This document shows positions 4,428 through 33,703 of a stretch of DNA of 33,703 nucleotides, one piece after another. The stretch covers positions 1 through 33,703 of the forward strand of contig CAJQPA010000063.1 of assembly GCA_905480145.1 (NCBI GenBank), written 5' to 3'. A program made the translations under genes and the position numbers. How positions within the stretch are numbered: the stretch's first letter is position 1; each line of letters opens with the position of its first letter. The notes beneath the pieces were generated by a model. That model searched no databases and had not been told where the DNA came from. It saw nothing but the letters and a program-made list of their open reading frames with translations. This DNA is from an uncultured Flavobacteriales bacterium. Its GTDB lineage: Bacteria; Bacteroidota; Bacteroidia; Flavobacteriales_D; Crocinitomicaceae.

Positions 4428-4485
4428 AACTTAAATATGTGTGAGGACTAAATTAATAATATCATTACCACCTAAAACAAAAAGC

Positions 4486-6210
4486 ATGCAAAAAAGATGG
4501 CAAGTAAAAACGCCAATAGATTCTACAATCGTAGAAGACTTTCGTTCAAAACTTAAAGTAGACCCTATTGTTGCCGAGCTATTATTACAAAGAGAAGTGG
4601 ATTCGTTCGAAAAAGCACAAAACTTCTTTAGACCAGACTTGAGCTCTTTACATGATCCATTTTTAATGAAGAACATGGAGAGCGCTGTTGAACGTTTGCA
4701 ACAAGCAATCAACGAACAACAAAGAGTCATGCTTTTTGGTGATTATGATGTAGACGGAACAACCGCTGTTGCTTTAATGTACTCCTTTTTGAAAGAAACC
4801 TTGCCAGTTGATTTTTACATTCCTGACAGATACAAGGAAGGGTATGGTTTAAGTGCTGAGGGAATTGATACAGCAGATAAGAATAAGGTGGACTTAATAA
4901 TCTCTTTAGATTGCGGAATTAAATCTATAGAAAATGTGGCGTATGCTCAATCGCTCGGAATTGACTTTATTATTTGTGATCATCACACTCCGGGCGATAT
5001 ACTTCCTGATGCATATGTATTGGATCCAAAACAAAAAGGTTGTGATTATCCATACAAGGAATTGTCGGGCTGTGGAGTTGGGTTTAAGTTATTACAAGCG
5101 CTTTGTGAACATAATAATTGGGGGCAAGAAAAACTGTTTGACTCACTTGATTTACTTGCTGTGAGTATAGGTGCTGATATAGTTCATGTCACTGGCGAAA
5201 ATAGAGTTTTGGCAATGCACGGCATGAAAAAACTGAACGAAAACCCAAGGTTTGCGTTTAAAACCCTTTTGAGCTTGGCAAAAAAAGAATTTCCGGTCAC
5301 ACTAACAGATGTTATTTTTTCAATCGCTCCAAGGATTAATGCCGCAGGCAGACTTCGCTCCGGTCGCTATGCAGTGGAATTAATGATTTCAAGTGACCAG
5401 GAAGAGATCCTTAAGTTGGCGAATGAAATAAATGAAGATAACCTTGAGAGAAGAGAGCTAGACAAAGAAATAACCAAAGAAGCACTAGAGCAAGCGGAGC
5501 AACTATTAGAAACTGGAAAAAGTTTTTCGACGGTAGTTTATAAAGAAAATTGGCACAAAGGGGTAATTGGTATTGTTGCCTCAAGGTTAATAGAAAAGCA
5601 TTACAAACCAACATTAGTTCTAACCTTGTCAAATGGATTAATCACTGGTTCTGCAAGATCCATAAAAGGTTTTGATGTCTATGAAGGGTTGTCAGAATGC
5701 TCAGAGTTTTTAGAGCAATTTGGTGGCCACACTTTTGCTGCGGGTTTAACGATGAAGCCTGAATCACTGGAGCCATTTAAGAAAAAATTTGAACAAGTCG
5801 CTTCAAATGTGCTTACTCCTGAATTAATGGTCGAGGAACAAATTGTAGACATTGAATTGTCTTTTGATCAAATTTTTCAAAAAGAAGAGAACCGGATGAA
5901 AGTTCCCAAATTAAAGAGAATCATTAAACAATTTGAGCCGCATGGCCCTGAAAATATGAAACCTGTGTTTATCAGTAAAAATGTATTTAGCACAGATGTA
6001 AGAGTTTTAAAAGACGCTCACCTTAAGCTGTCAATGACTCAGCCTGAAAATGATGTTGTGATAGAAGGTATTGGGTTTAATTTAGCCGAGAAAAAAGACA
6101 TTGTTGCTTCAGGCTTACCATTTGATGTAGTTTATACTTTAGAAATAAACAAATGGAGAGAAAGAGAAACAGTTCAGCTCAATATAAAAGATATTCGCGC
6201 AACGGTTTAA
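4486..6210 (+). CDS. recJ: Single-stranded-DNA-specific 5'-3' exonuclease RecJ
   Basis: RecJ degrades single-stranded DNA 5' to 3' in recombination, mismatch and base-excision repair. The protein has 574 residues, the normal length. DHH-family metal motifs are visible: FGDYDVDGTTA (D86, D88, D90), an LDCG motif with D142, and DHH at 165-167. A DHHA1-type GGHTFAAG motif begins at residue 413, followed by the OB-fold C-terminal region. The frame extends upstream to a GTG at 4441, but the ATG at 4486 (MQKRWQ) matches the usual start of Bacteroidota RecJ. The 4441 choice would add 15 residues and leave almost no leader. It diverges from the secreted protein gene upstream. A two-way terminator lies 9 bases after its stop. 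Confidence 0.95.
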   Translation: MQKRWQVKTPIDSTIVEDFRSKLKVDPIVAELLLQREVDSFEKAQNFFRPDLSSLHDPFLMKNMESAVERLQQAINEQQRVMLFGDYDVDGTTAVALMYSFLKETLPVDFYIPDRYKEGYGLSAEGIDTADKNKVDLIISLDCGIKSIENVAYAQSLGIDFIICDHHTPGDILPDAYVLDPKQKGCDYPYKELSGCGVGFKLLQALCEHNNWGQEKLFDSLDLLAVSIGADIVHVTGENRVLAMHGMKKLNENPRFAFKTLLSLAKKEFPVTLTDVIFSIAPRINAAGRLRSGRYAVELMISSDQEEILKLANEINEDNLERRELDKEITKEALEQAEQLLETGKSFSTVVYKENWHKGVIGIVASRLIEKHYKPTLVLTLSNGLITGSARSIKGFDVYEGLSECSEFLEQFGGHTFAAGLTMKPESLEPFKKKFEQVASNVLTPELMVEEQIVDIELSFDQIFQKEENRMKVPKLKRIIKQFEPHGPENMKPVFISKNVFSTDVRVLKDAHLKLSMTQPENDVVIEGIGFNLAEKKDIVASGLPFDVVYTLEINKWRERETVQLNIKDIRATV

Positions 6211-9071: not shown

Positions 9072-9108
9072 AATAAACCGATTTGCCCTTGTGGTAAATC
9101 GGTTTATT
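9072..9108 (+). terminator. Hairpin after hemD, probable terminator
   Basis: A 13-bp perfect stem (9072-9084 with 9096-9108, AATAAACCGATTT and its complement) has an 11-base loop. Only a short, imperfect T-rich tail follows. Termination is likely but weaker than at the other sites here. Confidence 0.65.
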
Positions 9109-9162
9109 TATGATAAAAACTTTATTTTTAAGGTAATAATAATCAAACAAAAATTAAGAAAT

Positions 9163-11055
9163 ATGAAAAAATTTTTACTTCCAGCGGTTGCTGTAATATT
9201 TGGAGCCAGTTCTTTGAACGCTCAAATATTTAGTGAATCGTTTGACACAGAAATTCCGACAACATGGACAATTATTGATGTCGATGGGCTTGCTTCTACA
9301 TCAGCTCAAGCTGAATGGGCGAGTTGGGCATGGAATGAAGGAGCGGGTGATGCATCTAGTTCTTCTTGGTATGACAATAATTTCACAGGGCCAACAAATG
9401 ATTGGTTGATCACTCCAGGAATAGCAATTCCTGCGACAGGTGCTTTTCAGGTAGAATTTGACGCCTCTTCCCATGAGGCAAATTACCTAGAAGAGTATGA
9501 GTTATTATATTCGACTACTGGTAACACAGTTGCAGATTTTACGGAAGCTGCTTTATTGTCAGTTGTTGACGAGGCTGAAGCTGGAACGAATCGTAAAGTA
9601 GTTCTTCCGGTTGCTGCAAATGGTCAAACGGTATACATTGCTATTCATCACACTTCAGATGATGAAAGTATGTTGCACATTGATAATTTTCTAGTAAAAG
9701 AATTATTAGCAGATGATATTCAAATGGTATCTCTTTCAATGAATAGTACAATTGTTGCCGGAAATATTAACGTAACTGGTACAGTTAAAAATAATGGTGC
9801 TAATACTATTTCTAGTTTTGAATTGTCTTATGACGCTGGAGCGGGTGCAGTTAGTGAAACTGTAACGCAAACAATCAATTCAGGAGCTACTTATAACTTT
9901 TCTCACAGTGTTCCTTTAGCCGTTGCAACTGGACCAATAGTGAATCTTGATGTTTGTGCTACGATGGCTGCTGACTTAGACAATAACAACGACTGCTTAT
10001 CAACAACTGTTTCTGCGGTTTCCTCAATTGTTCAAAAAGTAACGGTTGGTGAAGAAAGAACAGGAGAGTGGTGTGGATGGTGTCCTCGTGGTACTGTTGC
10101 TTTAGCCGAAATGGGAATTTCTAATCCTAATGATTTTATTGGTATAGCAGTTCATAATGGTGATCAAATGGCGGTTAGTGCATATGATAATGGTATAGAT
10201 GCTTTTATACCACCTTCTTTTCCAGGTGGTGGAGTTGATAGAATGGTAGAAGGTGATCCAGGTACTTTTTCTTCAATGCATGCATCTAGAGCGGGTGAAA
10301 TTCCTCCGGCTTCGATAGATGTTGTTTCTTCTACAGATGGAAATACTGTTACAGTTGTTGTGACTTCTAATTTTGTAGGTGGTTTGAATGGTGACTATCG
10401 ATTGGCTGCTGTTCTTTTACAAGATGGTATTAATGGTCTAGGTCAAACAAATTATTATAATGATGGTGCTTCGGGACCAATGCAAAACCCTAATGCAGGC
10501 TCAATGCCTAATTTTAACTGGGTTGGAGCAGGAGCAACTGTTTCACCAGTGATTCACGATCATGTAGCGGTAGCTTTGGGTGATAATCAAATTAATGGTG
10601 CAGCAGGTTCTTTGCCAACTATAGTAAATGATGGTGATGTTGAAACGCATACATACACATTTACACAGAATGCTTCATGGGTTATTGGTAATATGCATGC
10701 AGTGGGTATGTTGGTGAACGGGTCTACAGGAGAAATCTTGAACGCGGGAAAATCGGCTATTACAGGTACAGAAAGTTTAAGCGAAAATTTTGCGAACAAC
10801 TTTAGTATTTCAGCTATGCCAAACCCGACAAATGGTGTTGCAAACATAGTTGTTGATTTAGCAGTTGCTGCTGAAATGAACATGGTTATTGTTGATGTAT
10901 TAGGTAATGAAGTTTATAACTATGGTAACACAACTTTAGAAGCTGGTGTGCACACTACAAAAATTGATTTAACGAACAATGCTGAAGGTATTTACTTTGC
11001 AAAGGTAAACCTTAACGGTGCGGTTAAAACAGTTAAAATTAACGTTGTTAAGTAA
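9163..11055 (+). CDS. T9SS-exported protein with cleaved-adhesin-like and Omp28/thioredoxin-like domains
   Basis: This 630-residue surface or secreted protein has a signal peptide at residues 1-20 (MKKFLLPAVAVIFGASSLNA). Next comes a beta-sandwich resembling the cleaved adhesin domain (SESFDTEIPTTWTI, then TNDWLITPGIAI and HIDNFLVKE). A CARDB-like beta segment follows at about residues 185-290. Then comes an Omp28-type region with TGEWCGWCP, whose C304 and C307 form a thioredoxin-like CxxC. The C-terminal ~80 residues are a T9SS sorting domain starting at AMPNPTNGV. The frame extends upstream to 9091, but the ATG at 9163 gives the signal peptide and lies beyond the hemD hairpin. The role is probably surface binding or redox-linked folding; it is not proved. 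It stands alone between two terminators. Confidence 0.88.
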   Translation: MKKFLLPAVAVIFGASSLNAQIFSESFDTEIPTTWTIIDVDGLASTSAQAEWASWAWNEGAGDASSSSWYDNNFTGPTNDWLITPGIAIPATGAFQVEFDASSHEANYLEEYELLYSTTGNTVADFTEAALLSVVDEAEAGTNRKVVLPVAANGQTVYIAIHHTSDDESMLHIDNFLVKELLADDIQMVSLSMNSTIVAGNINVTGTVKNNGANTISSFELSYDAGAGAVSETVTQTINSGATYNFSHSVPLAVATGPIVNLDVCATMAADLDNNNDCLSTTVSAVSSIVQKVTVGEERTGEWCGWCPRGTVALAEMGISNPNDFIGIAVHNGDQMAVSAYDNGIDAFIPPSFPGGGVDRMVEGDPGTFSSMHASRAGEIPPASIDVVSSTDGNTVTVVVTSNFVGGLNGDYRLAAVLLQDGINGLGQTNYYNDGASGPMQNPNAGSMPNFNWVGAGATVSPVIHDHVAVALGDNQINGAAGSLPTIVNDGDVETHTYTFTQNASWVIGNMHAVGMLVNGSTGEILNAGKSAITGTESLSENFANNFSISAMPNPTNGVANIVVDLAVAAEMNMVIVDVLGNEVYNYGNTTLEAGVHTTKIDLTNNAEGIYFAKVNLNGAVKTVKINVVK

Positions 11056-14165: not shown

Positions 14166-17100
14166 TTGAAAACACTTAGATTACTACATACGAAAGCCCT
14201 ATTTACCCTATTGTTATTCCTTTCAGGAGTTTTATATGGTCAAGGAGATACGCTGAGATACCCAATCAATAACAATGTTGACCCTACGCAATCTACTGAA
14301 CAAAGCTTTGATTTAGGTGATCCATCCTCCGTAAATCAGACAATTGTTTATGATCCGATAACGGGAACTTATATTTTTAAGGAAACAATCGGCGCAAGAG
14401 AAATGTATTTCAGAAATCCTTCGATGATGACGTTGGAGGAGTACCTGGATTACGAGCGTAAAAAAACGATGCAGGACAATTGGAAGGAGAAAATTGATCA
14501 GCAAACACAGGCAAATCAGCCGCTTGAATTCCCAATAAAAATACCGAGTAAATTATTTGAAAACTTTTTCGGATCTGATCAAATTACAATACGTCCACAA
14601 GGTAGTATTGAGCTTTCATTTGGGGTGAATTCTTCGCGTTATGACAATCCGCTCATTCCAGAAAAACAACGAAAAATTACTCGGTTTGATTTTGATCAGC
14701 AAATTAATTTGAACTTGGTTGGACAGATTGGAACGAAGCTAAAGCTTGGTGTTAGCTATAATACACAAGCTGCATTTGATTTTGATAATGTTTCAAAGTT
14801 AGAATACAACGGAAACGAAGATCAAATCATGCAAAAGATTGCTTTGGGTAATGTGTCTATGGAGTTGCCAACATCCTTAATTCAAGGGTCTCAGACACTT
14901 TTTGGGGTGGCAACACAAATGAGATTTGGAAAAACAACAGTTGATTTAATCGCAGCTTCTTCAAAAGGTAAAAGAAAGGAAATTAATATTACTGGAAAAG
15001 CACAGGTTCAGGAATTTGAGTTGGGTGCAGATAATTACGAGGCAAACAGACATTATTTTGTGAACATGTATCATAGAGATCATTATGATGATGGAATGTC
15101 AACTTTGCCTATTGTTAATTCTACCATAAATATTACCCGTATGGAGGTTTGGTTAACGAACAAAACAAACAATACGGAGAACACAAGAAACATTGTTGCC
15201 TTCACTGATTTAGGAGAAGGTAATTCCTCAAATGTTCAAGGTGATCCAGGATCATTTTCTGGTGAATTACCTCAAAACTCGGCAAACGGACTTTATTCAT
15301 TTGCTTCCACGCATCCTGCCGTTAGGTCATTTTCTAATGCTGTAGCTGGTTTGTCTGCGCAAGTAGCATCCCCCGGACCTTTTCAGCAAGCTATTGACTA
15401 TGAAAAAGTAGAAAACGCAAGGAAATTAACAGAACAAGAGTTTACATATAACGCACAACTCGGTTTTATCTCATTGAATTTACCGCTAAATAATGATGAG
15501 GTTTTGGCTGTATCGTATGAATATACTTATAGAGGTGATACGTATCAGGTGGGTGAATTTTCGACAGATGGTGTCGCTGGACAAGATGCATTGATTCTTA
15601 AACTTCTAAAGCCAACAATTACGAGTCCAAGCAATAAACTGTGGGATTTAATGATGAAAAACGTCTATTCTATTGGTGCATATCAAGTTGATCAAGAAGG
15701 ATTCAGATTAGACTTATTGTATAATAACCCAGCTACCTCGGTTCAATTACCATTTTTCCCAGCGGATAATTTAGGAAATAATATTGCAGGAATCGATGAT
15801 AAACAGTTAGTTACGTTGCTAGAAATGGATAAAATTAATCAGAATAATCAACCGTTCTCTGATGGTGTTTTTGATTTTGTTCCAATTCAATTTAATGGAA
15901 GCCGCGCAGAAAATGGTGGAACCATAAATACACGAAATGGCCGTGTATACTTTTCAACGGTTGAGCCTTTTGGTAAAACCTTGTCAGACAAATTATTGGC
16001 AGCGAATGTTTCTCCAACAATTGTTGATCAAGTTGCATTTGTTGAGTTATATGATTCTACAAAAACAGCTGCCCAACAGATTCCAAGTAAGAATAGATTT
16101 AGTTTTAAAGGTGAATACAAATCATCCATTAGTTCTGACATTCCTTTAAATGCATTGAACGTTCCTGAAGGAGCTGTATCAGTGACTGCCGGGGGAATAA
16201 AGTTAACAGAAGGACAGGATTATACAGTAGATTACAATTTAGGACGTGTAAAGATTTTAAACACCGGGGTTTTGGAGTCGAATACACCAATTAAAATTTC
16301 TGTTGAGAGTAATTCTGTATTTGGTTTTCAATCAAAATCATTACTCGGGGCAAGGGTTGCGCATCGTTTTGGTGATCGTTTAAATATTGGAGCTACATGG
16401 ATGAGAATGATGGAACGACCGGTCACTCAAAAAGTGGATATTGGAAGCGAACCATTTAAAAACAATATAATTGGATTAGATTTTCAGTATAAAACTGACG
16501 TTCCTTTCTTGACAAAATTGGTAGATTACCTTCCAATAATTTCAACAAAAGAAAAGTCAACACTGTCTTTTACCGGAGAATTTGCGCATTTAATCCCTGG
16601 CCAACCTAAAGCGATTAACAAAGATGGAACTTCTTATATCGATGATTTTGAAGGGTCACAATCGACAATTGATTTAAAATCTATCAGTTCGTGGCGTTTG
16701 GCTTCAATTCCTCATGGACAACCTGATTTATTCCCGGAAGCTTCTAATTCAGATTTGTCTGCAGGCTATAAGCGATCGAAATTAGCTTGGTATGTTATTG
16801 ATCCACTTTTTTACCAAAGTAATAATTTGACTCCTCAGCATATTGTGAATAATCCAGCGCAGTTAGCTGATAGTAGAATGCGCTCTATTGATCAAAAAGA
16901 TATTTGGCCAAATTTTGACCCTCAGTATGGCTCTATTTCAAATGTAAATGTTCTAAATCTTGCTTATTATCCGAAAGAAAGGGGGATGTATAATTATGAT
17001 ATAAATAATGTTGATGCCGATGGAAATTGGTTAAACCCTGAAGATCGATGGGGTGGTATAATGCGTGCTTTAACGACTAACGATTTTGAACAAACAAACA

Positions 17101-20100
17101 TTGAATACATTCAGTTTTGGATGTTAGATCCTTTTCATGCTGATGCTGAAATTCTAGATCCAAACTCAACTCACAACGGAGGAGATTTGTATTTTAATTT
17201 AGGGAATATATCAGAAGATATTCTTCCAGATTCTAGAAAGAGTTTCGAACATGGTTTGTCTCCAACGGTTACTTCTATTGTGGACAATGTTGACACCACA
17301 GTTTGGGCAAGAGTTTCAACACAACAAGTTGTTGTTGACGCATTTGATAATGACCCATCTGCTCGTGCAAATCAAGATATTGGATTGGATGGGTGGAATA
17401 GTGCTGATGAAAATATCCAATATTCAGATTATATTTCTTGGGTTAATAACAATGCTACGTTATCTGCAGATGCTAAAGCAAAAATGATTGCTGATCCGTC
17501 AACGGATGATTACAACTATTTCAGAGATGATGATTATGATGTAGCACAATTAAACATTCTTGAGCGCTATAAAAAGTACAATGGAATGGAAGGTAATTCG
17601 CCAACAACTGAAATGTCGGATAATCTAAATAATGACAAGTACCCAACTACTAATACTAACTCTCCTGATATTGAAGATATCAACCAGGATAATAATTTGT
17701 CAGAATCTGAAGCGTATTTTCAATACAAAGTAAGCTTAAGACCGAGTGATATGGTTGTTGGCAAGAATTTTATCACAAGTATTCAAACCTACGATAAAGG
17801 CAATGGAGATGTTGAGAAATGGTGTCAGTTTAAAATTCCAATTAGAGATTATGAAAAGAAAGTAAATGGAATTACTGATTTTAGATCCATCCGTTTCATG
17901 AGAATGTTCATGAAAGACTTTGATGAAGAGGTTGTGTTAAGATTTGCTAGGCTTGAATTTATTCGTGGAGAATGGAGACGATATTTTGATGATTTAGTGG
18001 AAGATGGGGAAGGTATTCAGGTGGACCCTAATTTGACAACGTTTAACGTTGGTGCTGTTAATATTCAAGAGAATAACGATAAAGAACCAGTGAACTATGT
18101 TGTTCCTCCTGGAATTGATCAAGAAGTTGATCCATCGCAAACTTTTCAGCGTCTATTAAACGAGCAGTCTTTGAGTCTTGAAATTTGTGATTTACAGGAT
18201 GGAGATGCTAGAGCCGCCTATAAAAATGTTCAATTTGATGTACGAACATATAAGAAATTAAAAATGTTCGTGCATGCGGAGGAAAGCGACCCTTCAAAAC
18301 CATTGAATGATGATGATGTAACAATGTTTATTCGATTAGGGACGGATTTTACTGATAATTATTACGAATATGAACTACCATTAAAAGTGACGAATACGAG
18401 TGGTACAAGTAATTTATCAGACACTGAAGTATGGCCTGATGGAAATTTTGTAGAAATTATTTTTGCCGATTTATTAAACTTAAAGAAAAAGAGAAATGAA
18501 TTAATTAATGGTGGATCAAGTGCGGTTTCCTATATCATCCCTTATTCTTCAGTAGATCCAAAAAATGGAGAAAGAATTTTAAGAGTTAAAGGTAGCCCTA
18601 ACTTACAGGGTTTGAAAACAATGATGATTGGTGTAAGAAACCCACACAAAGACTCACATGTTTTGGACAGTTGGGGAGACGACGGCCAATCGAAATGTAC
18701 TGAGGTTTGGGTAAATGAATTACGATTAACCGACTTTGTTAGTGAGGGTGGTTCAGCTGCAGTTGCCCAAATGCAAGTTCAATTTGCTGATTTTGCTAAC
18801 CTGAACATGTCAGGAAATTATTCTGGTGTCAATTGGGGATCTGTAGAAAGCCGTGTTCAGGAACGTCAGCGTGATGAGCGCATTGGGTTTGATTTGAATA
18901 GTAATATTCAGTTGGGACAATTCTTTGGTAAGCGTGCAAAAGTATCATTGCCATTTTTCTATGCTTATTCTTTGGGAATAATAAATCCAGAATACGATCC
19001 TTTTAATCCAGATGTTCGATTGAATGAATACTCGGATCCTTCAGTGAGAAGAGAGAGGTCTCGCTTAGGGCAAGACTTTACGGAAAGAAAATCGTACAAC
19101 TTTACTAATGTGCGGAAAGAAAGTAAAGCAGGAGCTAAACCAAGAGTATGGAGAATTTCGAACTGGTCAGCTAACTATTCATATTCAGAGAATTTGAATC
19201 GCGATTTTAATACGAATTACGACAGAACAAAAACATGGAATGGAGGTCTGAATTATAACTATTCGTTCTCTTCAAAGCCATTCATGCCATTTAAGAAGTC
19301 AAAAGTGTTGAGAAAGTCAAAATGGTTTGCACTAATTAAAGATGCAAATATTTTCTTAAAGCCAAAAAACATTTCATTCAGTAGTGATGCCTTAAGGAGT
19401 TATAATGAGCGTCAAGTAAGAAATAATATAGTTCCAGATTATGAATTCCAACCTGTTTATGTCAAGCGATTTAACTGGAACAGAACTTATGGATTAGCAT
19501 ACGACATAACTAAAAAGCTAAAGTTTAAATTTGGCGCAAACAATAGATCTATTTTTGAAGAAGGTGATGGTGGAGTTGACCGAAAATTGAATCCTCAGGG
19601 TTATCAATCATTTAAAGATTCTGTTGCTTCTCAAATAGGAACATTTGGTAAAACAATGGATTACACGCACAATTATAGTTTGACATATACGCTACCATTC
19701 GATAAATTGCCAATTACAGATTGGATGACTGGAAATATTAAATATTCATCAACTTATAATTGGCAGCGAGCACCATTAGCGCAAAGACAATTTGGGAACA
19801 CAATTCAAAATAGTCGAAATGTGAACATGACTGGTCAAATGAACTTTACAAACCTTTATAATAAGGTGCCTTTCTTGAAGAAAGTTAATTCTGGGGGAAG
19901 AAAAAGTGGTCGACGACCTACAATCAGTTCAAGGCCAAATGTTTCAGATGGTAAAAAAACATCACCAAAAGAAGAAGAAGGAACATACGTACCAAAAATA
20001 TTAGAGCCAGAGAAACCAATTGATTCGATGACTCCAAAAGAACTCAAAAAGTGGGAGAGGAAATTAGAACGTTTTAACAAGAAAGAAAAGAGAAAAGTTG

Positions 20101-21530
20101 AACGCTCGAAAAGAAGAAAAGGTAAAGTTAATCCTGTTGCAGGTTTCTTTGCGCGAATTTTAATGAGTGTACGAAATGTATCTGGCACTTATGCTTTAAC
20201 GGATGGGACATTACTTCCTGGATATAATCAAGAGGTTGGAGTTTTAGGGTTTAACCCTAGTTTCAATTCTGGAATGAGTGGTTTTATTTTCGGGAAGCAA
20301 AGTTATGACTTATGGGGCAAAGAGACGGGCTATAATATTGGGGATGTTTCTAGAAATAATAATTGGTTGGTTCAAAATCAAGATTTAAATTCTCAGTTTG
20401 CAATTACACATAGCAAAAACTTAAATTTACGTGCAACCCTAGAGCCTATTAAAGACCTTTCAGTTGAACTTTCTGTGAATCGAACAATGAATAGAAATTC
20501 TACAGAATTCTATAGATGGAACGAGTCTACAACAAGTTTTGAAAGTCAAAGTAAAGTTGAGTTAACGACCATCTCATATTCAAATGTGTCACTGGGTTCT
20601 GCCTTTACAAAATTGGGAAAACAGTATCAATCATCTGTTTTTGATCAAATGCTAAACAATAGAACTTTGGTTTCTCAGTTATTGGGCGCTGAAAATGCAA
20701 ATTCTTCTCCTTCCTCTTCAGGTTATTATAATGGATATGGCGGAGCTCAGCAAGAAGTTGTTTTGGGTGCTTTCTTAACATCTTATTCCAACAGAAAAAT
20801 AAGCAACAACAATATCAATCCAATTAAAAACTTACCACTGCCAAACTGGTCATTGAATTATAACGGTTTAAAGAATTTCCCGGGAATGAAGAAATTGGTA
20901 AGAAACTTTGTGATTCGACATGGTTACAGCTCTACAGTTAGTGTTTCTGGAATGCAGTCCAACTTGAACGCAGAATTTGACAACAATGGAGATGCAACAG
21001 CTCGGGACTTAAATCAGAACTTTATTGCATTGAATCAAATTCAAAATGTTGTCGTGACAGAACGATTCTCTCCTTTGATTGGGTTTGATGCTACTTGGGT
21101 GATTAAAGGGCAAGGATTGATTACTAAATTTGAGTACAAAAAAGACAAAAGTTCATCACTTTCTTTAAACAACAATCAGGTAACTGAGGTATTGGGTGAT
21201 GAGTGGGTAATTGGTGTGGGATACAAATTTGGAAAAGTGAAGCTGCCATTTGAGAAAATCGCTGCTAGTCCTGTAAATATGAGATTTGATTTTTCTTACA
21301 GAGATAATTTAACTGTTATTCGTAAGATTGTAGAAAACACAAATCAAGCTACGGCTGGTCAAAAAGTAATTTCTATAAAAGCTTCAGCGGATTACAATTT
21401 GACCAAATTCTTAACGGTTCAAATGTATTATGATCAGACATTGAATACTCCAAAAATTGCAACATCTTACCCTACGGGTAACATGAGTGCAGGTCTTCGA
21501 TTGAGGTTTAATTTAGCTGGTGTTCAATAA
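14166..21530 (+). CDS. sprA: T9SS outer-membrane translocon SprA (cell surface protein SprA/Sov), TTG start
   Basis: SprA is the giant outer-membrane beta-barrel through which T9SS cargo passes. The protein has 2454 residues, within the usual 2300-2500 range. The N-terminus LLHTKALFTLLLFLSGVLYGQ is a signal peptide. Family features include TIRPQGSIELSFGVNSSRYDN, LGVSYNTQAAFDFDN, SIDDFEGSQSTIDLKSI-like text near residues 820-840 (YIDDFEGSQSTIDLKS), and ISVESNSVFGFQSKSLLGARV. The C-terminal half is rich in alternating aromatic strands and ends GLRLRFNLAGVQ. A Lys/Arg-rich insert (about residues 1910-1985, near KKWERKLERFNKKEKRKVER) is likely periplasmic or an extracellular loop. No ATG precedes the signal peptide in frame, so TTG at 14166 is chosen, one base after the ruvA stop. 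It can serve the two T9SS cargo proteins in this window. Confidence 0.95.
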   Translation: MKTLRLLHTKALFTLLLFLSGVLYGQGDTLRYPINNNVDPTQSTEQSFDLGDPSSVNQTIVYDPITGTYIFKETIGAREMYFRNPSMMTLEEYLDYERKKTMQDNWKEKIDQQTQANQPLEFPIKIPSKLFENFFGSDQITIRPQGSIELSFGVNSSRYDNPLIPEKQRKITRFDFDQQINLNLVGQIGTKLKLGVSYNTQAAFDFDNVSKLEYNGNEDQIMQKIALGNVSMELPTSLIQGSQTLFGVATQMRFGKTTVDLIAASSKGKRKEINITGKAQVQEFELGADNYEANRHYFVNMYHRDHYDDGMSTLPIVNSTINITRMEVWLTNKTNNTENTRNIVAFTDLGEGNSSNVQGDPGSFSGELPQNSANGLYSFASTHPAVRSFSNAVAGLSAQVASPGPFQQAIDYEKVENARKLTEQEFTYNAQLGFISLNLPLNNDEVLAVSYEYTYRGDTYQVGEFSTDGVAGQDALILKLLKPTITSPSNKLWDLMMKNVYSIGAYQVDQEGFRLDLLYNNPATSVQLPFFPADNLGNNIAGIDDKQLVTLLEMDKINQNNQPFSDGVFDFVPIQFNGSRAENGGTINTRNGRVYFSTVEPFGKTLSDKLLAANVSPTIVDQVAFVELYDSTKTAAQQIPSKNRFSFKGEYKSSISSDIPLNALNVPEGAVSVTAGGIKLTEGQDYTVDYNLGRVKILNTGVLESNTPIKISVESNSVFGFQSKSLLGARVAHRFGDRLNIGATWMRMMERPVTQKVDIGSEPFKNNIIGLDFQYKTDVPFLTKLVDYLPIISTKEKSTLSFTGEFAHLIPGQPKAINKDGTSYIDDFEGSQSTIDLKSISSWRLASIPHGQPDLFPEASNSDLSAGYKRSKLAWYVIDPLFYQSNNLTPQHIVNNPAQLADSRMRSIDQKDIWPNFDPQYGSISNVNVLNLAYYPKERGMYNYDINNVDADGNWLNPEDRWGGIMRALTTNDFEQTNIEYIQFWMLDPFHADAEILDPNSTHNGGDLYFNLGNISEDILPDSRKSFEHGLSPTVTSIVDNVDTTVWARVSTQQVVVDAFDNDPSARANQDIGLDGWNSADENIQYSDYISWVNNNATLSADAKAKMIADPSTDDYNYFRDDDYDVAQLNILERYKKYNGMEGNSPTTEMSDNLNNDKYPTTNTNSPDIEDINQDNNLSESEAYFQYKVSLRPSDMVVGKNFITSIQTYDKGNGDVEKWCQFKIPIRDYEKKVNGITDFRSIRFMRMFMKDFDEEVVLRFARLEFIRGEWRRYFDDLVEDGEGIQVDPNLTTFNVGAVNIQENNDKEPVNYVVPPGIDQEVDPSQTFQRLLNEQSLSLEICDLQDGDARAAYKNVQFDVRTYKKLKMFVHAEESDPSKPLNDDDVTMFIRLGTDFTDNYYEYELPLKVTNTSGTSNLSDTEVWPDGNFVEIIFADLLNLKKKRNELINGGSSAVSYIIPYSSVDPKNGERILRVKGSPNLQGLKTMMIGVRNPHKDSHVLDSWGDDGQSKCTEVWVNELRLTDFVSEGGSAAVAQMQVQFADFANLNMSGNYSGVNWGSVESRVQERQRDERIGFDLNSNIQLGQFFGKRAKVSLPFFYAYSLGIINPEYDPFNPDVRLNEYSDPSVRRERSRLGQDFTERKSYNFTNVRKESKAGAKPRVWRISNWSANYSYSENLNRDFNTNYDRTKTWNGGLNYNYSFSSKPFMPFKKSKVLRKSKWFALIKDANIFLKPKNISFSSDALRSYNERQVRNNIVPDYEFQPVYVKRFNWNRTYGLAYDITKKLKFKFGANNRSIFEEGDGGVDRKLNPQGYQSFKDSVASQIGTFGKTMDYTHNYSLTYTLPFDKLPITDWMTGNIKYSSTYNWQRAPLAQRQFGNTIQNSRNVNMTGQMNFTNLYNKVPFLKKVNSGGRKSGRRPTISSRPNVSDGKKTSPKEEEGTYVPKILEPEKPIDSMTPKELKKWERKLERFNKKEKRKVERSKRRKGKVNPVAGFFARILMSVRNVSGTYALTDGTLLPGYNQEVGVLGFNPSFNSGMSGFIFGKQSYDLWGKETGYNIGDVSRNNNWLVQNQDLNSQFAITHSKNLNLRATLEPIKDLSVELSVNRTMNRNSTEFYRWNESTTSFESQSKVELTTISYSNVSLGSAFTKLGKQYQSSVFDQMLNNRTLVSQLLGAENANSSPSSSGYYNGYGGAQQEVVLGAFLTSYSNRKISNNNINPIKNLPLPNWSLNYNGLKNFPGMKKLVRNFVIRHGYSSTVSVSGMQSNLNAEFDNNGDATARDLNQNFIALNQIQNVVVTERFSPLIGFDATWVIKGQGLITKFEYKKDKSSSLSLNNNQVTEVLGDEWVIGVGYKFGKVKLPFEKIAASPVNMRFDFSYRDNLTVIRKIVENTNQATAGQKVISIKASADYNLTKFLTVQMYYDQTLNTPKIATSYPTGNMSAGLRLRFNLAGVQ

Positions 21531-21980: not shown

Positions 21981-23543
21981 ATGGGGAAGTCTAAGATTAT
22001 TCTCATTTTATCTGGTTGCATTCTTTTCACCTATTTAATAGTGTTGTTTTTTAGTGGTTCTGTGACCATGGCAGATGCGCACCGAGGATTTGAAGCAATG
22101 CATCAATTTAATAATGAAGGTGCATGGAACGTTCTTAATTACCCTTCTGTGGAAAGCCCCGTATCGAGTTCTTATATTTCATGGTGGGCACCTGGTCAAT
22201 GGATGATTCCGTCGCTCTTAATTGCTTTGGGCATTCACTCTATACAGAATATTCAATTTCTGTTGATTGGAATTAGTGTTTTGCTTAGCATATACGGTTA
22301 TTATCGCCTTTTCAATCAGTTGAAATTTGCTAAAACCGTGAATGCCTTATCTATTCTTTGCATTGTCTCTAATTACACCTTTTATTGGCAGACCCTGATG
22401 TATCATGGAGGGGAACTCTTTTTAACGGCTTTGTTGCCATATTTTGTTTTAATTTTATTGCAACTTTCTACTTTTTCCATTATCAAGAGAGTACTTGTTT
22501 TTGGTGGGATTGCGATACTGGGTTTGTTTTTAAAGAATACGTTTTTTATTCTTTTAATTTGTGGGGGAATTTTCATTTTATTTTATCGAAACGGCACAAC
22601 TTTTAAAGAACGTTTGAGATACGCCTGGCCAATAGCGTTGACTTTTTCTGTGATTGCAATACCATTTTATATGTCTCATTTGAGTGTAAATGAAACACCA
22701 TCTTCGGCGATTGATTTAGAGGGGTATTTTAACATCCCAAATACTTTTATAGGTGATATTGTTTATTCTTTCGGGAGTCCGATAGGAATATTTACAAGGT
22801 ATAATTTTCTTTCTCATCAAATAAACGGAATGTTGTTTAATCATCTCCGTTTCTATAATGTTCTCCAGTTATTGCCCTTTGCCGTCATGCTTTTGTTTTA
22901 TGCTCGTTCGTATCGATTGAGAAGTGAAAAGTATCATGCGTTATTGATATATTTTTGCCTGCCATTTTTTACAGCATTTACCATTTTTTATCTGCAAGAT
23001 AAAGCGGTGTCATATGAAATGAGACATTTTGCAGCAGTCGGGTTTTTGTTTTTTCCAGGAATTATTCAATGGGCCAAAGAATCGAAGTACTTCAAAATTG
23101 TAGGGATGACAATTCTGTTGCTGTGTTTAATGGATTTGGGGATTTATTCTCAACAAGTGACTAACATCAATGAGAAACATCTTTTTTGGAATGATTTAAA
23201 AGTACCAATAGAGGATGGGAAAATACTTTCTGCCATAGAACAGTGGGACGCGAAACACCATAATGGTTTGATTCTAATAGAAGATTATTGGCAGTTATCG
23301 ATCGGTCAATGGGATAATGATAAAATGGTTGTTGCTATTGATGGTGATAAAGCGCGATTAGTATCAGGAATGGAGTTGGACAATCCAGTGTATTTAAAAG
23401 ATATGAATGTTTTGGTCAGAGCATATGATCACATTCTTCTTATATGCCGAACAGAGTCTAAAGTCAAACCAAAGCTGAAAAATAAGAATTGGGAACAAAT
23501 GATTTCCACAAAAAGGTTTCAAATAATTAGCGCTGATTTATAG
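21981..23543 (+). CDS. Multi-pass membrane protein, possible GT-C-type glycosyltransferase
   Basis: This 520-residue protein has about nine to eleven membrane segments, then a soluble C-terminal tail of ~130 residues. After the first segment comes a loop with acidic residues (TMADAHRGFEAMHQF), as in GT-C lipid-linked-sugar transferases, which put a catalytic acidic residue in the first exported loop. WWAPGQWMIPSLLIALG and the later LLLCLMDLGIYS segments fit such topology. I do not recognise a named family. It lies at the end of the sprA cluster, so a role in modifying surface polysaccharide or T9SS cargo anchoring is possible but unproved. Its stop overlaps the converging phoH-type gene by 6 bases. 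A transporter or an O-antigen-type protein is an alternative. Confidence 0.6.
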   Translation: MGKSKIILILSGCILFTYLIVLFFSGSVTMADAHRGFEAMHQFNNEGAWNVLNYPSVESPVSSSYISWWAPGQWMIPSLLIALGIHSIQNIQFLLIGISVLLSIYGYYRLFNQLKFAKTVNALSILCIVSNYTFYWQTLMYHGGELFLTALLPYFVLILLQLSTFSIIKRVLVFGGIAILGLFLKNTFFILLICGGIFILFYRNGTTFKERLRYAWPIALTFSVIAIPFYMSHLSVNETPSSAIDLEGYFNIPNTFIGDIVYSFGSPIGIFTRYNFLSHQINGMLFNHLRFYNVLQLLPFAVMLLFYARSYRLRSEKYHALLIYFCLPFFTAFTIFYLQDKAVSYEMRHFAAVGFLFFPGIIQWAKESKYFKIVGMTILLLCLMDLGIYSQQVTNINEKHLFWNDLKVPIEDGKILSAIEQWDAKHHNGLILIEDYWQLSIGQWDNDKMVVAIDGDKARLVSGMELDNPVYLKDMNVLVRAYDHILLICRTESKVKPKLKNKNWEQMISTKRFQIISADL

Positions 23544-24863
23544 TAAATCATTTGCTAAGTTGGCCAATTCTGAACGTTCACCTTTCTCTAATTTCACTGC
23601 TGCAAAGAGATTTTGCCCCTTTAATTTTGTCATTAAATAGGCTAATCCATTACTGTGTTCATCTAAGTAAGGTGTGTCAATTTGATTTACATCACCAGTA
23701 AAGACAATTTTTGTTCCTTCTCCTGCACGAGTAATTATTGTTTTGATCTCATGGGGTGTTAAATTTTGAGCTTCATCAACTATAATCATCATGTTCGATA
23801 AACTTCTCCCACGAATAAATGCCAAAGCAGAAATAACAATTTTTCCGCTTTCTTGAAGTTCAGTAATTGCTTTGTGTTTTCGCTCATTTTCTCCAAATTG
23901 CGATTTTATAAATTTGAGATTATCCCAAAGTGGCTCCATGTATGGACCAATTTTATCATTAGCATCACCCGGCAAAAAACCTATTTCGTTATTTGATAAG
24001 GGGACAATAGGTCGGGCTAATAATATTTGTTGATACTTTTTATGTTGCTCCAAAGCTGAAGCCAAAGCTAATAGTGTTTTACCCGTTCCAGCTACCCCTT
24101 GTAATGCAACGAGTTTTATATCGTGGTTCAATAATGCATTTAAAGCAAACGCTTGTTCTGCGTTCTTCGGCTTAATCCCATAAACAAATTCTTTTTCAAC
24201 GCGCTCAATTTGATCTAAATTTGGGTTGTATACAGCAAGGGAAGATGTTTTACCATTTTTGAGAATATAATAACCATTGGCTACTTTGTTCGTCCCCAAA
24301 ACACCATTTTCATCAATTCTCCCTTTTGTAAATATTTGACGAATTTGGTCAGGATCAACATTCTCAATTGTATTGACACTTGCTGTTTTGGAAACATCAT
24401 CTACAATTTTATCTGTTCTATAATCTTCAGAATTAAGACCCAGTGCTTTTGCCTTGATGCGCAGATTAATATCCTTCGTAACAAGAATCACATCCTTATC
24501 TTTTTCAGTTTCTTTTAAAAAAAGTGCTGCGTTAAGAATTTTGTGATCATTTTTTCCACGTGCATAGATATTTTCTGCATCCAAACCTTTAAGGTCTGTT
24601 GCTAAAATGATTTTGAAATTTCCACGGTGTTCACCCAGTGGAATCCATTCTTGTAGACTCGCATCTTCTGAAATTTTATCGATAAACCGTATAACTTCCC
24701 TTGCAGAAAAATTCTTGGTGTCGTTCCCAATTTTAAAATTATCTAGCTCTTCTAATACAGTTATCGGAATAGCAACGTCATTATTTTTAAATGAAAGAAT
24801 AGCTTGATGATCGTGCAGTAATACAGAGGTATCCAATACGGCAATTTTTTTCTTCTTAGGCAT
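23538..24863 (-). CDS. PIN domain-PhoH family ATPase (PhoH2 type)
   Basis: The protein has 441 residues. The N-terminal PIN ribonuclease domain (about 1-140) starts IAVLDTSVLLHDHQAI (conserved Asp) and has a VLEELDNFK acidic motif. It also has GKNDHKILNAAL and DVILVTKDINLRIKAKA. The C-terminal PhoH helicase-like domain (about 235-441) carries Walker A GVAGTGKTLLALA and IIVDEAQNLTPHEIK (Walker B). GTKIVFTGDVNQIDTPY follows as the Q-loop/sensor region. PhoH2 proteins in other bacteria join RNA unwinding to RNA cutting. The ATG at 24863 is the first in frame and fits MPKKKKIAVLDTS. No toxin-antitoxin partner is seen beside it. Confidence 0.92.
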   Translation of the reverse strand: MPKKKKIAVLDTSVLLHDHQAILSFKNNDVAIPITVLEELDNFKIGNDTKNFSAREVIRFIDKISEDASLQEWIPLGEHRGNFKIILATDLKGLDAENIYARGKNDHKILNAALFLKETEKDKDVILVTKDINLRIKAKALGLNSEDYRTDKIVDDVSKTASVNTIENVDPDQIRQIFTKGRIDENGVLGTNKVANGYYILKNGKTSSLAVYNPNLDQIERVEKEFVYGIKPKNAEQAFALNALLNHDIKLVALQGVAGTGKTLLALASALEQHKKYQQILLARPIVPLSNNEIGFLPGDANDKIGPYMEPLWDNLKFIKSQFGENERKHKAITELQESGKIVISALAFIRGRSLSNMMIIVDEAQNLTPHEIKTIITRAGEGTKIVFTGDVNQIDTPYLDEHSNGLAYLMTKLKGQNLFAAVKLEKGERSELANLANDLL

Positions 24864-29669: not shown

Positions 29670-32600
29670 ATGAATCGTAAGATCAATTCAGAAATTAATA
29701 TAAAGGGAGCGAAAGAGAATAACCTAAAGGATATCACAATTTCTATTCCTCACAATAAGTTGATTGTAGTCACGGGAATTTCTGGGTCTGGTAAATCAAG
29801 TTTGATTTTTGATGTTCTAGCCAAAGAAGGCCAGCGAAGATATTTTGAGACATTACCATCTTTTGCACGTCAATTTTCAGGTAAATTAAACAGGCCAGAT
29901 GCAGATTCAATTGAGGGACTTTCTCCAGTTATAACTATCGGTCAACAAACCGCAGGAGTTAACGGTCGATCAACAGTTGGAACAATTTCTGATTTGTATG
30001 ATTTACTACGTCTATTATATGCTCGAAAAGGCAATACAACAAGAGAAATTGAACTTTCACGGTCATTATTCTCATTTAATTCTGAAAACGGAAAATGCAA
30101 GCGTTGCAATGGGATTGGGAATGAGGAACAAATCGACTTAAACAAACTAATTAGGTTTCCTGAGAAATCCATTAGAGATGGCGCCTTAGCTCCAACATTG
30201 CCCACAGGGTATATTATGTACTCACAGGTCACTATTGATGTGTTGAACCAAGTATGCGAAGCTGAAGGATTCAACGTAGACATTCCTTGGAATGATCTAA
30301 CAGAGGCTCAAAAAGAAATTGTTCTCTTTGGAAGTGATAAAATAAAAGTTCCATTTGGAAAACACAGTTTGGAATCTCGCCTTAAGTGGACGGGTATCAA
30401 GGCTAAGCCAAGAGAAAAAGGATTTTATAAAGGAATGATTCCAATTATGTCTGACATTCTGCGACGAGACCGGAATGTTAATATTCTCAAGTATGTTCAT
30501 GCTGTTCAATGCGCGGAATGTGAAGGAGCTCGACTCAACATAGACGCGCTGAGTGTTTTAGTGCATGAACAAAGAATCATTGATTTAACTACATTGGAAA
30601 TCAACGATCTGAATTCATGGATAAAGAAGAATGATTGGGACGAAGTTGGTGATGTAATTGTAAAAAAGATAAGTAAACAGTTAGCGTTATTGGAAGATAT
30701 TGGATTGGGACATTTACAACTAAACAGATCGGCCAATACACTTTCTGCAAGTGAAATTCAGAGAATTCGAGTGGCCAACCAAATATTGGTTCCATTATGT
30801 GATGTTTTGTATGTTTTTGATGAACCTTCGATTGGTTTACATCCTGCAGAGAATAGAAAAATGATTAGCTATTTTAAGGAGCTTGTCAATCTCGGAAATA
30901 CTGTAATTATTGTCGAACACGATTTGGAAACCATATCTAATGCAGAACATATTATAGATATTGGACCTCTTGCTGGAGAATTGGGGGGAGAAGTTTTATA
31001 TAACGGACCATTTTCTTCTTTTCGAGAGAATAAAAAATTGAAAGGACTTAGTCCTACTTTTGATGCGTTAAATCATCAGTATGAAATAACTTCAAAAAAA
31101 CATTTTCTTAAAGGCGAAACTCTAGGCTTAAAGTCTTGCACGAAGAATAATTTGAAATCAATTGATGTTGATTTTATGTTGGGCGGACTAAATATTATCA
31201 GTGGAAAATCGGGCTCCGGAAAATCTAGTTTGGTTAAGAGTACTTTACTGAATGTTGTAAAAGAGCAATTGGGAGAAGAAGTGAAAGAATTAGGGAATGT
31301 AGCTTCGGTTGAAAATATCGAATTAATAGACAAACTTATCTACATTGATCATTCGCCAATTGGAAGAACACCAAGGAGTAATCCAGCTACGTATTTAGGG
31401 ATTTCCGATTATATTCGAGACGCATTCTCCAAATTAGAAAAGTCTAAAAAAAGCGGGTTCTCAAAATCAACATTTTCTTTCAATAACAAAGGAGGAAGGT
31501 GCGAAACTTGTCAAGGTGGAGGCAAGACACAAATTGGCATGCACTTTTTAGGAAACGTTGATTTAACCTGCAGTTCTTGCGATGGGAAACGTTTCAAGGA
31601 AAATGTTTTAAGTGTCAAGCTCAGCGGGTTATCTATAGCGGATGTTTATCAATTAACAGTTTCGGAAGCCATTGTTTTTTTTGAGGGTTATCCAAAAATT
31701 CAAACAGGCTTAAGAGTGCTGGAGGAAATAGGATTGGGATATTTAAGGATAGGGCAATCTTCTACAACTCTATCGGGAGGAGAGGCTCAGCGCATTAAAA
31801 TAGCGAATCAGTTGCAAAGAAAAGATACTGGCAAGACGCTTTACGTTCTTATAGAGCCATGTATAGGGTTGCATCCCTCGAATATTGCATCCTTGTTAAA
31901 GATGCTCGACCATCTCAAATCGAAGGGTAATACAATTGTATGCATTGAGCAAAACCCAGCAATAATACAAGCGAGTGACTGGCATATTGAATTAGGACCG
32001 AGTGGCGGAAGAACTGGCGGTAAATTGATTCATCATGGAACTCCTTATAGAGGAAAATCAATTACTGAGACGTTAGTTAATCAAAAAAACAACGCAATTA
32101 CAGGCAATAATTGGATAGAATTGAATGGAGTCAATACCCATGGTTTGAAAAACATCAATGTTCGATTCCCAAAGAATGAGTTAACGGTTGTCACAGGAAT
32201 TTCAGGTTCTGGGAAATCAACCTTGGTATATGACACACTTTTCTCTGAAGCCAACACTAGATTTACCGAGTCCTTATCTGCTTATAGCAGGAGTTTTATG
32301 CAACAGAACAATGAAGCAAAAATTAAATCAAGCATTGGCTTGGGCCCTGCGATTGGTTTGAATAGGAAAAAAGGAACTTTCTCAGTACGCTCAACTGTTG
32401 GTTCAATCACTGGACTTTACGATTCACTGAGATTACTTTATTCTAGAATTAGTCAAGAACAAGGAGAAGTTTTTACTGCGCAGCATTTTTCATTTAACCA
32501 TCATTTAGGTGCGTGTGAAGTTTGTAAAGGAGCAGGAAGTTTGTTAGAATGTGATGTAAATCAAATAATTATTGATGAGTCATTGAGTGTTCTTAATGGT

Positions 32601-33703
32601 GCGCTTTCTTCTGAAAAAGCAGCAAAATATTTCACGAATTTGGATGGTCAATTTATAGCAATCTTAATGGAGGTAGCGCACTCAAAAGGTTGGGAGCTAA
32701 ATATACCTTGGAAAAACCTATCTGATGAGGTAAAGAATGTCATTTTGTATGGTACAGGAGATAAAGAATGGGAAGTTGAATGGGAATTCAAAACAAAATC
32801 ACGTTCTGGTGTTCAGCAATTGAAAAGTACTTGGCAGGGATTCTGCAATTACATTGATGAAGAACTTGAACGAAAGCAAAATAACAAGAACATCACTGAA
32901 TTGATGACTTTGATGCATGAAGTTGAATGTTATTCATGTAAAGGTAGTCGACTGAAACCAGAGTTGTTAGCAACGCATTTTTTGAATAGGAACATACATG
33001 AATTTTCTCAGTTATCATTGGTTGAAGTAAGTGACGTACTAGTAGAGATTGGTTTAATTAATAGTGCAACGGTTCAATCAATCGCTGAACATATAAAACC
33101 ATCTCTTCAATCCACCTTGAAAACACTGATTAATCTGGGGTTGGGTTATTTAAGTATTAATCGTTCTATCAAAACATTGTCAGGAGGAGAACAACAGCGC
33201 GTTGCATTGGCGGGACAATTGTCGAATCACTTATTTGGAGTGACTTATGTTTTGGATGAACCAACAATTGGGTTGGATCCTGATCAAATTCAGAACTTAG
33301 CTCACATTCTTAAAGCGTTGATATCAAATGGGAACACAGTTATTGTTGTCGAGCACGATGCAACATTCATTGAACAGGCAGATTATTTAATAGAAATGGG
33401 TCCACTTTCTGGAAAAGATGGCGGAAATATAGTTTATCAAGGAGAATTAAAAGGGATTGATAAATTCCCTGAAACAGCCACTTATCAGTTATTGAATTAT
33501 ATGCCTGGAAAGATTCCGAAAAGAAGAAATTCAGTTGGTGAAATATTTGGGGTGAAAAACGCATCGATTAATAATTTGAAAGGCTTTGATATTACCTTTA
33601 AACCAAAATCAATTACTGCTATAACGGGCGTTTCTGGAAGCGGAAAATCAAGTCTGATTCGAGATGTTTTATATGGATCATGGAAATCTAAAAAAGCGGT
33701 GGG
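29670..33703 (+). CDS. Giant UvrA2-like ABC ATPase with at least four ABC modules (3' end outside window)
   Basis: 1344 residues are visible and the frame is still open at the window end. Walker A motifs occur at residues 36 (GISGSGKSS), 512 (GKSGSGKSS), 843 (GISGSGKST) and 1320 (GVSGSGKSS). Spacings of 476 and 477 show two successive UvrA-like units, each with a first and second ABC module. UvrA hallmarks are TLPSFARQF and IEGLSPVITI, RSTVGT in units 1 and 2, FSFN before CxxC (C143/C146; C949/C952), CEGARL and CKGSRL. Unit 1 also has a complete zinc finger 2 (C611, C614, C634, C637). Neither unit has the UvrB-binding domain: LYARKG or LYSRIS runs within ~15 residues into FSFN. The first CxxC of zinc finger 1 is missing too. 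Unit 1 has a damaged composite ATPase site (LSASE 358-362, IEP at 728, Q761), while LSGGE at 701 and DEP at 384 are intact. Start ATG 29670 matches the UvrA N-terminus. A role in UvrB-independent DNA damage tolerance or drug resistance is inferred. Confidence 0.9.
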   Translation, partial: MNRKINSEINIKGAKENNLKDITISIPHNKLIVVTGISGSGKSSLIFDVLAKEGQRRYFETLPSFARQFSGKLNRPDADSIEGLSPVITIGQQTAGVNGRSTVGTISDLYDLLRLLYARKGNTTREIELSRSLFSFNSENGKCKRCNGIGNEEQIDLNKLIRFPEKSIRDGALAPTLPTGYIMYSQVTIDVLNQVCEAEGFNVDIPWNDLTEAQKEIVLFGSDKIKVPFGKHSLESRLKWTGIKAKPREKGFYKGMIPIMSDILRRDRNVNILKYVHAVQCAECEGARLNIDALSVLVHEQRIIDLTTLEINDLNSWIKKNDWDEVGDVIVKKISKQLALLEDIGLGHLQLNRSANTLSASEIQRIRVANQILVPLCDVLYVFDEPSIGLHPAENRKMISYFKELVNLGNTVIIVEHDLETISNAEHIIDIGPLAGELGGEVLYNGPFSSFRENKKLKGLSPTFDALNHQYEITSKKHFLKGETLGLKSCTKNNLKSIDVDFMLGGLNIISGKSGSGKSSLVKSTLLNVVKEQLGEEVKELGNVASVENIELIDKLIYIDHSPIGRTPRSNPATYLGISDYIRDAFSKLEKSKKSGFSKSTFSFNNKGGRCETCQGGGKTQIGMHFLGNVDLTCSSCDGKRFKENVLSVKLSGLSIADVYQLTVSEAIVFFEGYPKIQTGLRVLEEIGLGYLRIGQSSTTLSGGEAQRIKIANQLQRKDTGKTLYVLIEPCIGLHPSNIASLLKMLDHLKSKGNTIVCIEQNPAIIQASDWHIELGPSGGRTGGKLIHHGTPYRGKSITETLVNQKNNAITGNNWIELNGVNTHGLKNINVRFPKNELTVVTGISGSGKSTLVYDTLFSEANTRFTESLSAYSRSFMQQNNEAKIKSSIGLGPAIGLNRKKGTFSVRSTVGSITGLYDSLRLLYSRISQEQGEVFTAQHFSFNHHLGACEVCKGAGSLLECDVNQIIIDESLSVLNGALSSEKAAKYFTNLDGQFIAILMEVAHSKGWELNIPWKNLSDEVKNVILYGTGDKEWEVEWEFKTKSRSGVQQLKSTWQGFCNYIDEELERKQNNKNITELMTLMHEVECYSCKGSRLKPELLATHFLNRNIHEFSQLSLVEVSDVLVEIGLINSATVQSIAEHIKPSLQSTLKTLINLGLGYLSINRSIKTLSGGEQQRVALAGQLSNHLFGVTYVLDEPTIGLDPDQIQNLAHILKALISNGNTVIVVEHDATFIEQADYLIEMGPLSGKDGGNIVYQGELKGIDKFPETATYQLLNYMPGKIPKRRNSVGEIFGVKNASINNLKGFDITFKPKSITAITGVSGSGKSSLIRDVLYGSWKSKKAV

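Follow-up and report, generated by a model that had tools for sequence, protein, structure and literature searches.

The window analysed here is a complete contig of 33,703 nucleotides from an uncultured Flavobacteriales bacterium of the Crocinitomicaceae (GenBank assembly GCA_905480145.1, contig CAJQPA010000063.1), and the frame at its right-hand end codes for a pair of UvrA-like units joined in tandem, which together hold four ATP-binding cassette (ABC) modules. The frame opens with an ATG at 29670 on the plus strand and runs without a stop to 33701, at the window end, coding for 1,344 amino acids; as the window is the whole contig, the gene (29670-33703) lacks its 3' end at the contig edge. 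The absent C-terminal part, about 245 amino acids, was not recovered elsewhere in the assembly with a Fulvivirga C-terminus as query, whose only hits, at 32-44% identity, were the window modules, the pair of ordinary UvrA and two further ABC-type frames. A first-pass annotation made from the sequence alone had placed Walker A motifs at residues 36, 512, 843 and 1320 and had read from them a UvrA duplicated within one gene. A motif pattern scan returned the same four positions (a loose pattern also matched residue 790, which is not the Walker A of any module), and the repeat was borne out both by self-comparison and by the UvrA profile. The window DNA holds four in-register copies with spacings of 1428, 993 and 1431, the two halves of the protein are 33% identical over 543 columns in BLASTP (E value 2e-91), profiles of the N and C halves align across 765 columns (E value about 3e-189), and the TIGR00630 (UvrA) profile scores 1263 bits on the protein in four stretches.

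By alignment with the complete Fulvivirga relative L021, the N half comprises residues 1-805 (29670-32084) and the incomplete C half begins at residue 806 (32085-33703), as the BLASTP comparison between the halves also indicates; all features of the gene given below lie on the plus strand. AlphaFold2 models of the window N half (predicted local distance difference test score, pLDDT, 82.1; predicted template modelling score, pTM, 0.75) and of the complete L021 C half (pLDDT 85.5, pTM 0.79) were compared with PDB structures in Foldseek, where the first 39 rows were all UvrA in each case and UvrA structures ranked before other ABC proteins. The units share the features of the UvrA superfamily: two ABC nucleotide-binding domains (NBDs) per unit, UvrA-type zinc cysteines and an insertion domain. 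The host also encodes two ordinary UvrA, together with UvrB and UvrC, and the tandem UvrA is therefore an additional protein.

Homologues of the same four-module layout were found in other assemblies, 42 of them distinct and full-length, nearly all from Bacteroidota and one from Aminicenantes, each in a single frame of 1,569-1,710 amino acids, which agrees with the 1600-1700 residues predicted by the first-pass annotation for the complete protein. Motif counts below refer to these 42 relatives, the window itself being excluded; conservation was compared across 47 N halves, 46 C halves, 14 class II singles and 6 class I rows. All sixteen scored zinc cysteines are kept in 42/42 relatives. Both halves, in contrast to class I UvrA, are without a UvrB-binding domain. 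The TIGR00630 alignment skips about positions 117-261 in both window halves, and the first CxxC follows Walker A at a distance of 107 amino acids in 37 of the 47 N halves, where it ranges from 104 to 129, and of 106 in 41 of the 46 C halves (89, 108, 109 and 215 in others, and not found in one), as against 108 in 10/14 class II singles and 244-245 in 6/6 class I rows. The reading of a whole UvrA duplicated in one gene thus stands in part: the UvrA-like unit is present twice, and it is not whole, the UvrB-binding domain being absent from both copies. For this reason the units resemble class II UvrA, an assignment judged on that domain only; in place of the one unit per chain and identical protomers of class II, there are two unequal units per chain.

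According to Case et al. 2019 (PMC6486640), the Walker motifs and H-loop of NBD II together with the signature of NBD I make one composite ATP site. In the N half of most members this site, the distal one, is degenerate. Its Walker B Asp is changed in 36/42 relatives (to Ile in 21, Val in 8, Thr in 4, and Met, Ala and Glu in 1 each), its switch (H-loop) His in 38/42 (Gln in 37, Tyr in 1), and its partner, signature I, is not LSGGE in 39/42, the commonest form being LRASE (19). The window has its own version of the same pattern, with an LSASE signature in module I (30741-30755), Ile-Glu instead of Asp-Glu at Walker B of module II (31851-31856) and Gln instead of His at the H-loop (31950-31952), while the Lys of the module II Walker A (31200-31229) is kept. 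Two or more N distal features are changed in 43 of the 47 full chains, and the shorter group (L129, L131 and L133, together with the divergent L130), like L019 and L020, has no aligned Walker A Lys in its N distal module. That two parts of one composite site are both hit exceeds, as judged from these alignments, what random decay would be expected to produce. The other sites are largely kept. Every scored residue of the N proximal site, plus signature II, is intact in 42/42, and in the window this site has its Walker A (module I, 29772-29801), its Walker B Asp-Glu (module I, 30819-30824) and its LSGGE signature (module II, 31770-31784). All 42 relatives retain Lys, Asp and Glu at both C-half sites, as they do the distal His and the LSGGE of signature I; the window shows an intact Walker A (C proximal site, 32193-32222), LSGGE signature (33177-33191) and Walker B Asp-Glu (33255-33260) in module III and an intact Walker A in module IV (33624-33653), the remainder of module IV lying past the contig end. 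Among the controls, the distal Asp and His are intact in 14/14 class II and 6/6 class I rows.

The halves also part company at the PRSNPATY text of module II, which we take to be a portion of signature domain II. Arg is kept in 46/47 and Asn in 47/47 N halves, and at the same columns the C halves have neither (0/46 each); an unaligned pattern of the motif fits 46/47 N halves, 14/14 class II and 6/6 class I rows and no C half. In the window the motif reads SPIGRTPRSNPATY (31353-31394). The RSTVGT text of module I, by comparison, is present in the common forms of both halves. The suggestion of the first-pass annotation that the halves are free to diverge has accordingly found substance, in the module II motif split between them and in a degenerate N distal site beside conserved C-half sites. 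According to PMC7835731, signature domain II and the insertion domain supply most UvrA DNA contacts. The insertion domain of the N half (residues 150-279, 30117-30506) forms its conservation peak: mean pairwise identity is 0.774 versus 0.575 for the rest of the N half (47 rows, ratio 1.40), the 120-column windows over the domain are the most conserved of the N half, and identity in the domain exceeds that of the N body in 1034/1035 pairs and in 23/23 pairs without a common organism. Elsewhere the ratio of insertion to body identity is 0.97 (C halves, 46 rows), 0.51 (class I, 6 rows) and 0.70 (class II, 14 rows), and the C-half insertion domain of the window (approximately 32535-32924) belongs to a region no more conserved than its surroundings. 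Compared alone with solved structures, the N insertion domain met four UvrA sequences, in weak matches covering roughly its first 80 residues (best E value 0.0008). As a query in a class-wide sample it met 7/395 genomes, own included, six matches lying within frames of 1,350-1,625 amino acids and one within a frame of 399; no unfused carrier was seen in this sample of 395 genomes, in which the 399-residue frame was left unexamined.

In a quick-search tree of 64 halves and singles, which includes 22 of the 47 tandems, the 22 N halves form one group and 21 C halves another, each with a Shimodaira-Hasegawa-like approximate likelihood ratio (SH-aLRT) support of 100. L052, L064 and L071 lie deep in both clades and are the first to split among N halves with class I as outgroup. 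The class I and class II rows fall outside both clades, class II in two groups, and the backbone is weak. In the tree of the 47 full chains, for which L052, L064 and L071 were chosen as the root, these three cluster together (support 100). Since the N halves form one clade and the C halves another, a single old fusion would fit, after which the gene as a whole was inherited or transferred. The two clades are not shown as sisters, and by this topology the fusion may have arisen by internal duplication or from two paralogs. L127 (836 amino acids, its contig ending just beyond) entered the tree of halves without an assigned group and falls among N halves. Furthermore, L130 (G065:C1) is a very divergent relative of 1,525 amino acids whose branches are the longest in either tree and whose C-half motifs are odd and possibly misaligned on so long a branch; G077:C57 (1,531 amino acids) resembles it by score.

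Scanning of named genome contigs turned up 51 loci, which belong almost entirely to Bacteroidota (Fulvivirga, Lewinella, Neolewinella, Roseivirga, Crocinitomix, Saprospiraceae and Flavobacteriales); the exceptions are one Candidatus Aminicenantes and two distant Bacillota. Within the window's genus 14/34 genomes match at 1e-155, own included, one of them split over two frames and another reduced to a fragment that holds a stop. Among 199 genomes sampled across the order, at least 8 besides the window's have matches of no less than 57% identity, of which some are fragments, and at least 9 further genomes have frames of 1,502-1,549 amino acids at 37-41% identity. In a phylum-wide sample 8/395 genomes match at 1e-155; besides the window's own, only G551 (1,500 amino acids) is tandem, the other matches being frames of 844-945 amino acids. 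Every match in a plasmid search was below 60% identity, and six of these records became class II comparison rows; six exact peptide patterns, a narrow test, matched no viral contigs. Several copies depart from the common form. The same-genus copy G595:C17:6117-10152 is split in module II into frames of 642 and 1,017 amino acids and may be a broken gene, a form with two genes, or the result of a sequencing error. L054/L132 (G593:C60) measures 1,696 amino acids, with about 100 extra C-half residues between Walker A and the first CxxC. The Crocinitomix relatives L044, L065 and L066 have 14-28 extra residues ahead of the first N-half CxxC, which stands at residues 165, 157 and 171 versus 143, in the region that holds the UvrB-binding domain in class I.

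The rows behind these counts were chosen as follows. From the 42 relatives we excluded duplicates (L062, identical to L010, and L026, identical to L012), the shorter group L019 and L020, rows below 1,480 amino acids or cut by a contig end (L015, L035, L043, L051, L056, L060, L061, L066, L069, L070), and the fragment L068. The set was drawn from plus-strand frames and so does not hold L011, L013, L016, L017 and L018, of which L017 also has a stop within its match. The L011 contig is represented by L047 and the L018 genome by L129, the L013 contig is that of L035, and L016 is in no set. The conservation set adds L129, L130, L131 and L133 and leaves out L132 (its contig as long as that of L054), L020, for which no substitute entered, and L069; L079-L083, from the genus search, were kept out of the sets.

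Comparison of gene neighbours across the homologues, proposed in the first-pass annotation, yielded no common family: among 528 flanking frames at 53 loci none recurs in more than 5 loci. The five window genes adjoining the tandem gene face the opposite way and include a PhoH-like ATPase joined to a PIN domain (23538-24863), the rest having weak or no Pfam matches. More than 23 kb from the tandem gene lie a PIF1-like helicase with HTH_40 (1483-3780) and a DHH/DHHA1/RecJ_OB protein (4441-6210). A 2,454-residue SprA_N (motility/secretion) protein at 14166-21530 and Por_Secre_tail proteins at 31-1326 and 9091-11055 are consistent with a Bacteroidota contig. Moreover, L038, L040, L054, L058 and L059 have a divergently oriented gene, DsbA-like by sequence inspection, no more than about 1.1 kb from the tandem gene.

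Taken together, we put at about even the proposal that this gene encodes a single-chain, UvrB-independent UvrA in which one half reads DNA and the other supplies ATP turnover. The two halves would fold together within one chain as two chains do in the UvrA saddle, and a putative built-in dimer, already raised by the first-pass annotation, is plausible. The N half, as the reader, would use its nearly invariant insertion domain to recognise one given target, whether a DNA lesion, a ligand or a structure; its distal site may still bind nucleotide and would hydrolyse it poorly, and turnover at the other three sites, including those of the C half as the engine, would drive clamping and release. Without UvrB docking, the bound ligand might be removed, or the site protected or marked, with no hand-over for excision, an outcome for which the nearest precedent is the UvrB-independent drug resistance conferred by Ecm16. 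Going further, and only tentatively, the family could be a third kind of UvrA with obligately complementary protomers, a hydrolysis-impaired reader of one widespread lesion, ligand or DNA structure beside an engine half with rewritten DNA text, independent of UvrB. As part of the same reading, the change would have passed through stages, from deep-branching members whose N distal site is intact to a main group in which it is degenerate and then to a group of about 1,500 amino acids without its Walker A.

Several observations weigh against so clean a division of labour. The N distal catalytic Glu is kept in 42/42 relatives and the Walker A Lys in 41/42, so that the site may not be dead; L052 and L064 retain all four scored N distal features, L071 all but the signature and L053 all but the His. 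Nor is the C half flawless: its proximal His is kept in 40/42, with Gln in 2, its signature II is LSGGE in only 38/42, and in the 46-row set of C halves a single departure occurs at each of signature I, the distal Lys, the distal Glu and the distal His. Among class II singles signature I is variable too (LSGGE in 3/14), and with the variation of signature II in the C half this makes signature changes alone weak evidence. The insertion-to-body ratio is 0.99, not 0.70, when the ten closest class II singles are taken. Furthermore, in 34/46 C halves the altered PRSNPATY motif has an Arg at the preceding position, and DNA contact may therefore persist there; for the same reason the motif, as far as the alignment goes, is better called rewritten than lost. 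Finally, the lack of a conserved neighbour offers the proposal no support.

The alternative that survives best, although we consider it unlikely, is that the chain still dimerises, with another copy of itself or else with the host UvrA1, into an eight-NBD or mixed assembly, the fusion only fixing stoichiometry and the N distal site decaying as redundant. The linker between the halves varies from 17 to 48 amino acids (median 30), so that intramolecular pairing is not imposed, the host possesses a pair of ordinary UvrA, and the deep members retain the N distal site; decay is nevertheless concentrated on one site, with Lys, Asp and Glu of the other three kept in 42/42, and the rewritten module II text of the C half fits complementary halves of one working unit. 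It is improbable that the protein acts ahead of ordinary excision repair by locating lesions that it then hands to UvrA1 and UvrB, for although the host has UvrA1 twice, UvrB and UvrC, the UvrB-binding domain is absent from both halves and no neighbour is conserved. Marginally less probable again is some DNA transaction other than damage sensing, such as recombination, chromosome structure or defence. An orphan gene would suit it, as would the match of the window protein to the PADLOC mad3 model at 343 bits, but ordinary UvrA1 (288 bits) and class II UvrA (254 bits) match the model as well, and a link to defence (MADS) through mad3 or mad8 was rejected as generic UvrA similarity; the invariant zinc cysteines and the PRSNPATY text of the N half likewise speak against such a role. 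The first-pass annotation foresaw a false join of two uvrA genes in the assembly, or a stop or frameshift that leaves module IV incomplete, and a gene that stops at a contig end might also be an ordinary uvrA with an artefact in its frame; these possibilities are refuted for the layout by the 42 one-frame, full-length relatives in other assemblies and by the 14/34 matching genomes of the genus, only the window's own 3' end being unseen.

If a single-chain UvrA of unequal halves is confirmed, its value would lie in this inequality. The roles of the proximal and distal sites of UvrA have so far been studied with engineered mutants of dimers of identical chains, where each mutation strikes both copies; in a natural asymmetric UvrA, where evolution would have parted the roles within one chain, each site and each insertion domain can be altered once, singly. 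In addition, the near-constant N insertion domain would imply a specific common target that should be identifiable biochemically.

Among known systems, class I UvrA shares with the tandem protein the module order and the zinc cysteines, as well as the RSTVGT and PRSNPATY text in the N half. Closer in build is UvrA2 of Deinococcus radiodurans (PDB 2VF7), with two NBDs per unit, an insertion domain and no UvrB-binding domain; it is also a fold match, and it aligns to the window N half in one stretch where the best class I structures align in two. UvrA2 differs in having one unit per chain and forming a dimer of identical chains, as described in PMC5128194. The class II singles as a whole (14 rows, without D. 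radiodurans) differ in keeping the distal Asp and His and in lying outside the N and C clades. Ecm16 and DrrC are drug-specific class II UvrA, of which Ecm16 served for comparison. According to PMC10192343, Ecm16 has no UvrB-binding domain, its insertion domain sets substrate choice and it works in a UvrB knockout. It resembles the tandem halves in the missing domain and is among the fold matches of both half models; unlike the orphan tandem gene, that of Ecm16 stands in an antibiotic cluster, and the protein is a homodimer with four ADP bound (also PMC10192343).

The NCBIfam model NF001885 ('excinuclease ABC subunit A', 1809 positions) is a double-length UvrA model, presumably with two units per chain. 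We take it to represent the chlamydial long UvrA. Membership of the window protein was rejected, since it scores 748.7 bits against a cut-off of 3054, a score lowered by the incomplete 3' end and available for the window only; the window protein also skips model positions of about 121-255, which the two ordinary UvrA of the host cover unbroken. We found no description of this tandem asymmetric arrangement in the literature searched, most subscription papers being outside reach, and an earlier account is possible. Class II UvrA and tandem UvrA have precedents. A parallel lies further afield, in heterodimeric ABC transporters, where one composite ATP site is degenerate. The tandem UvrA shares with them the single degenerate composite site, in a soluble protein of UvrA type that has kept its catalytic Glu.

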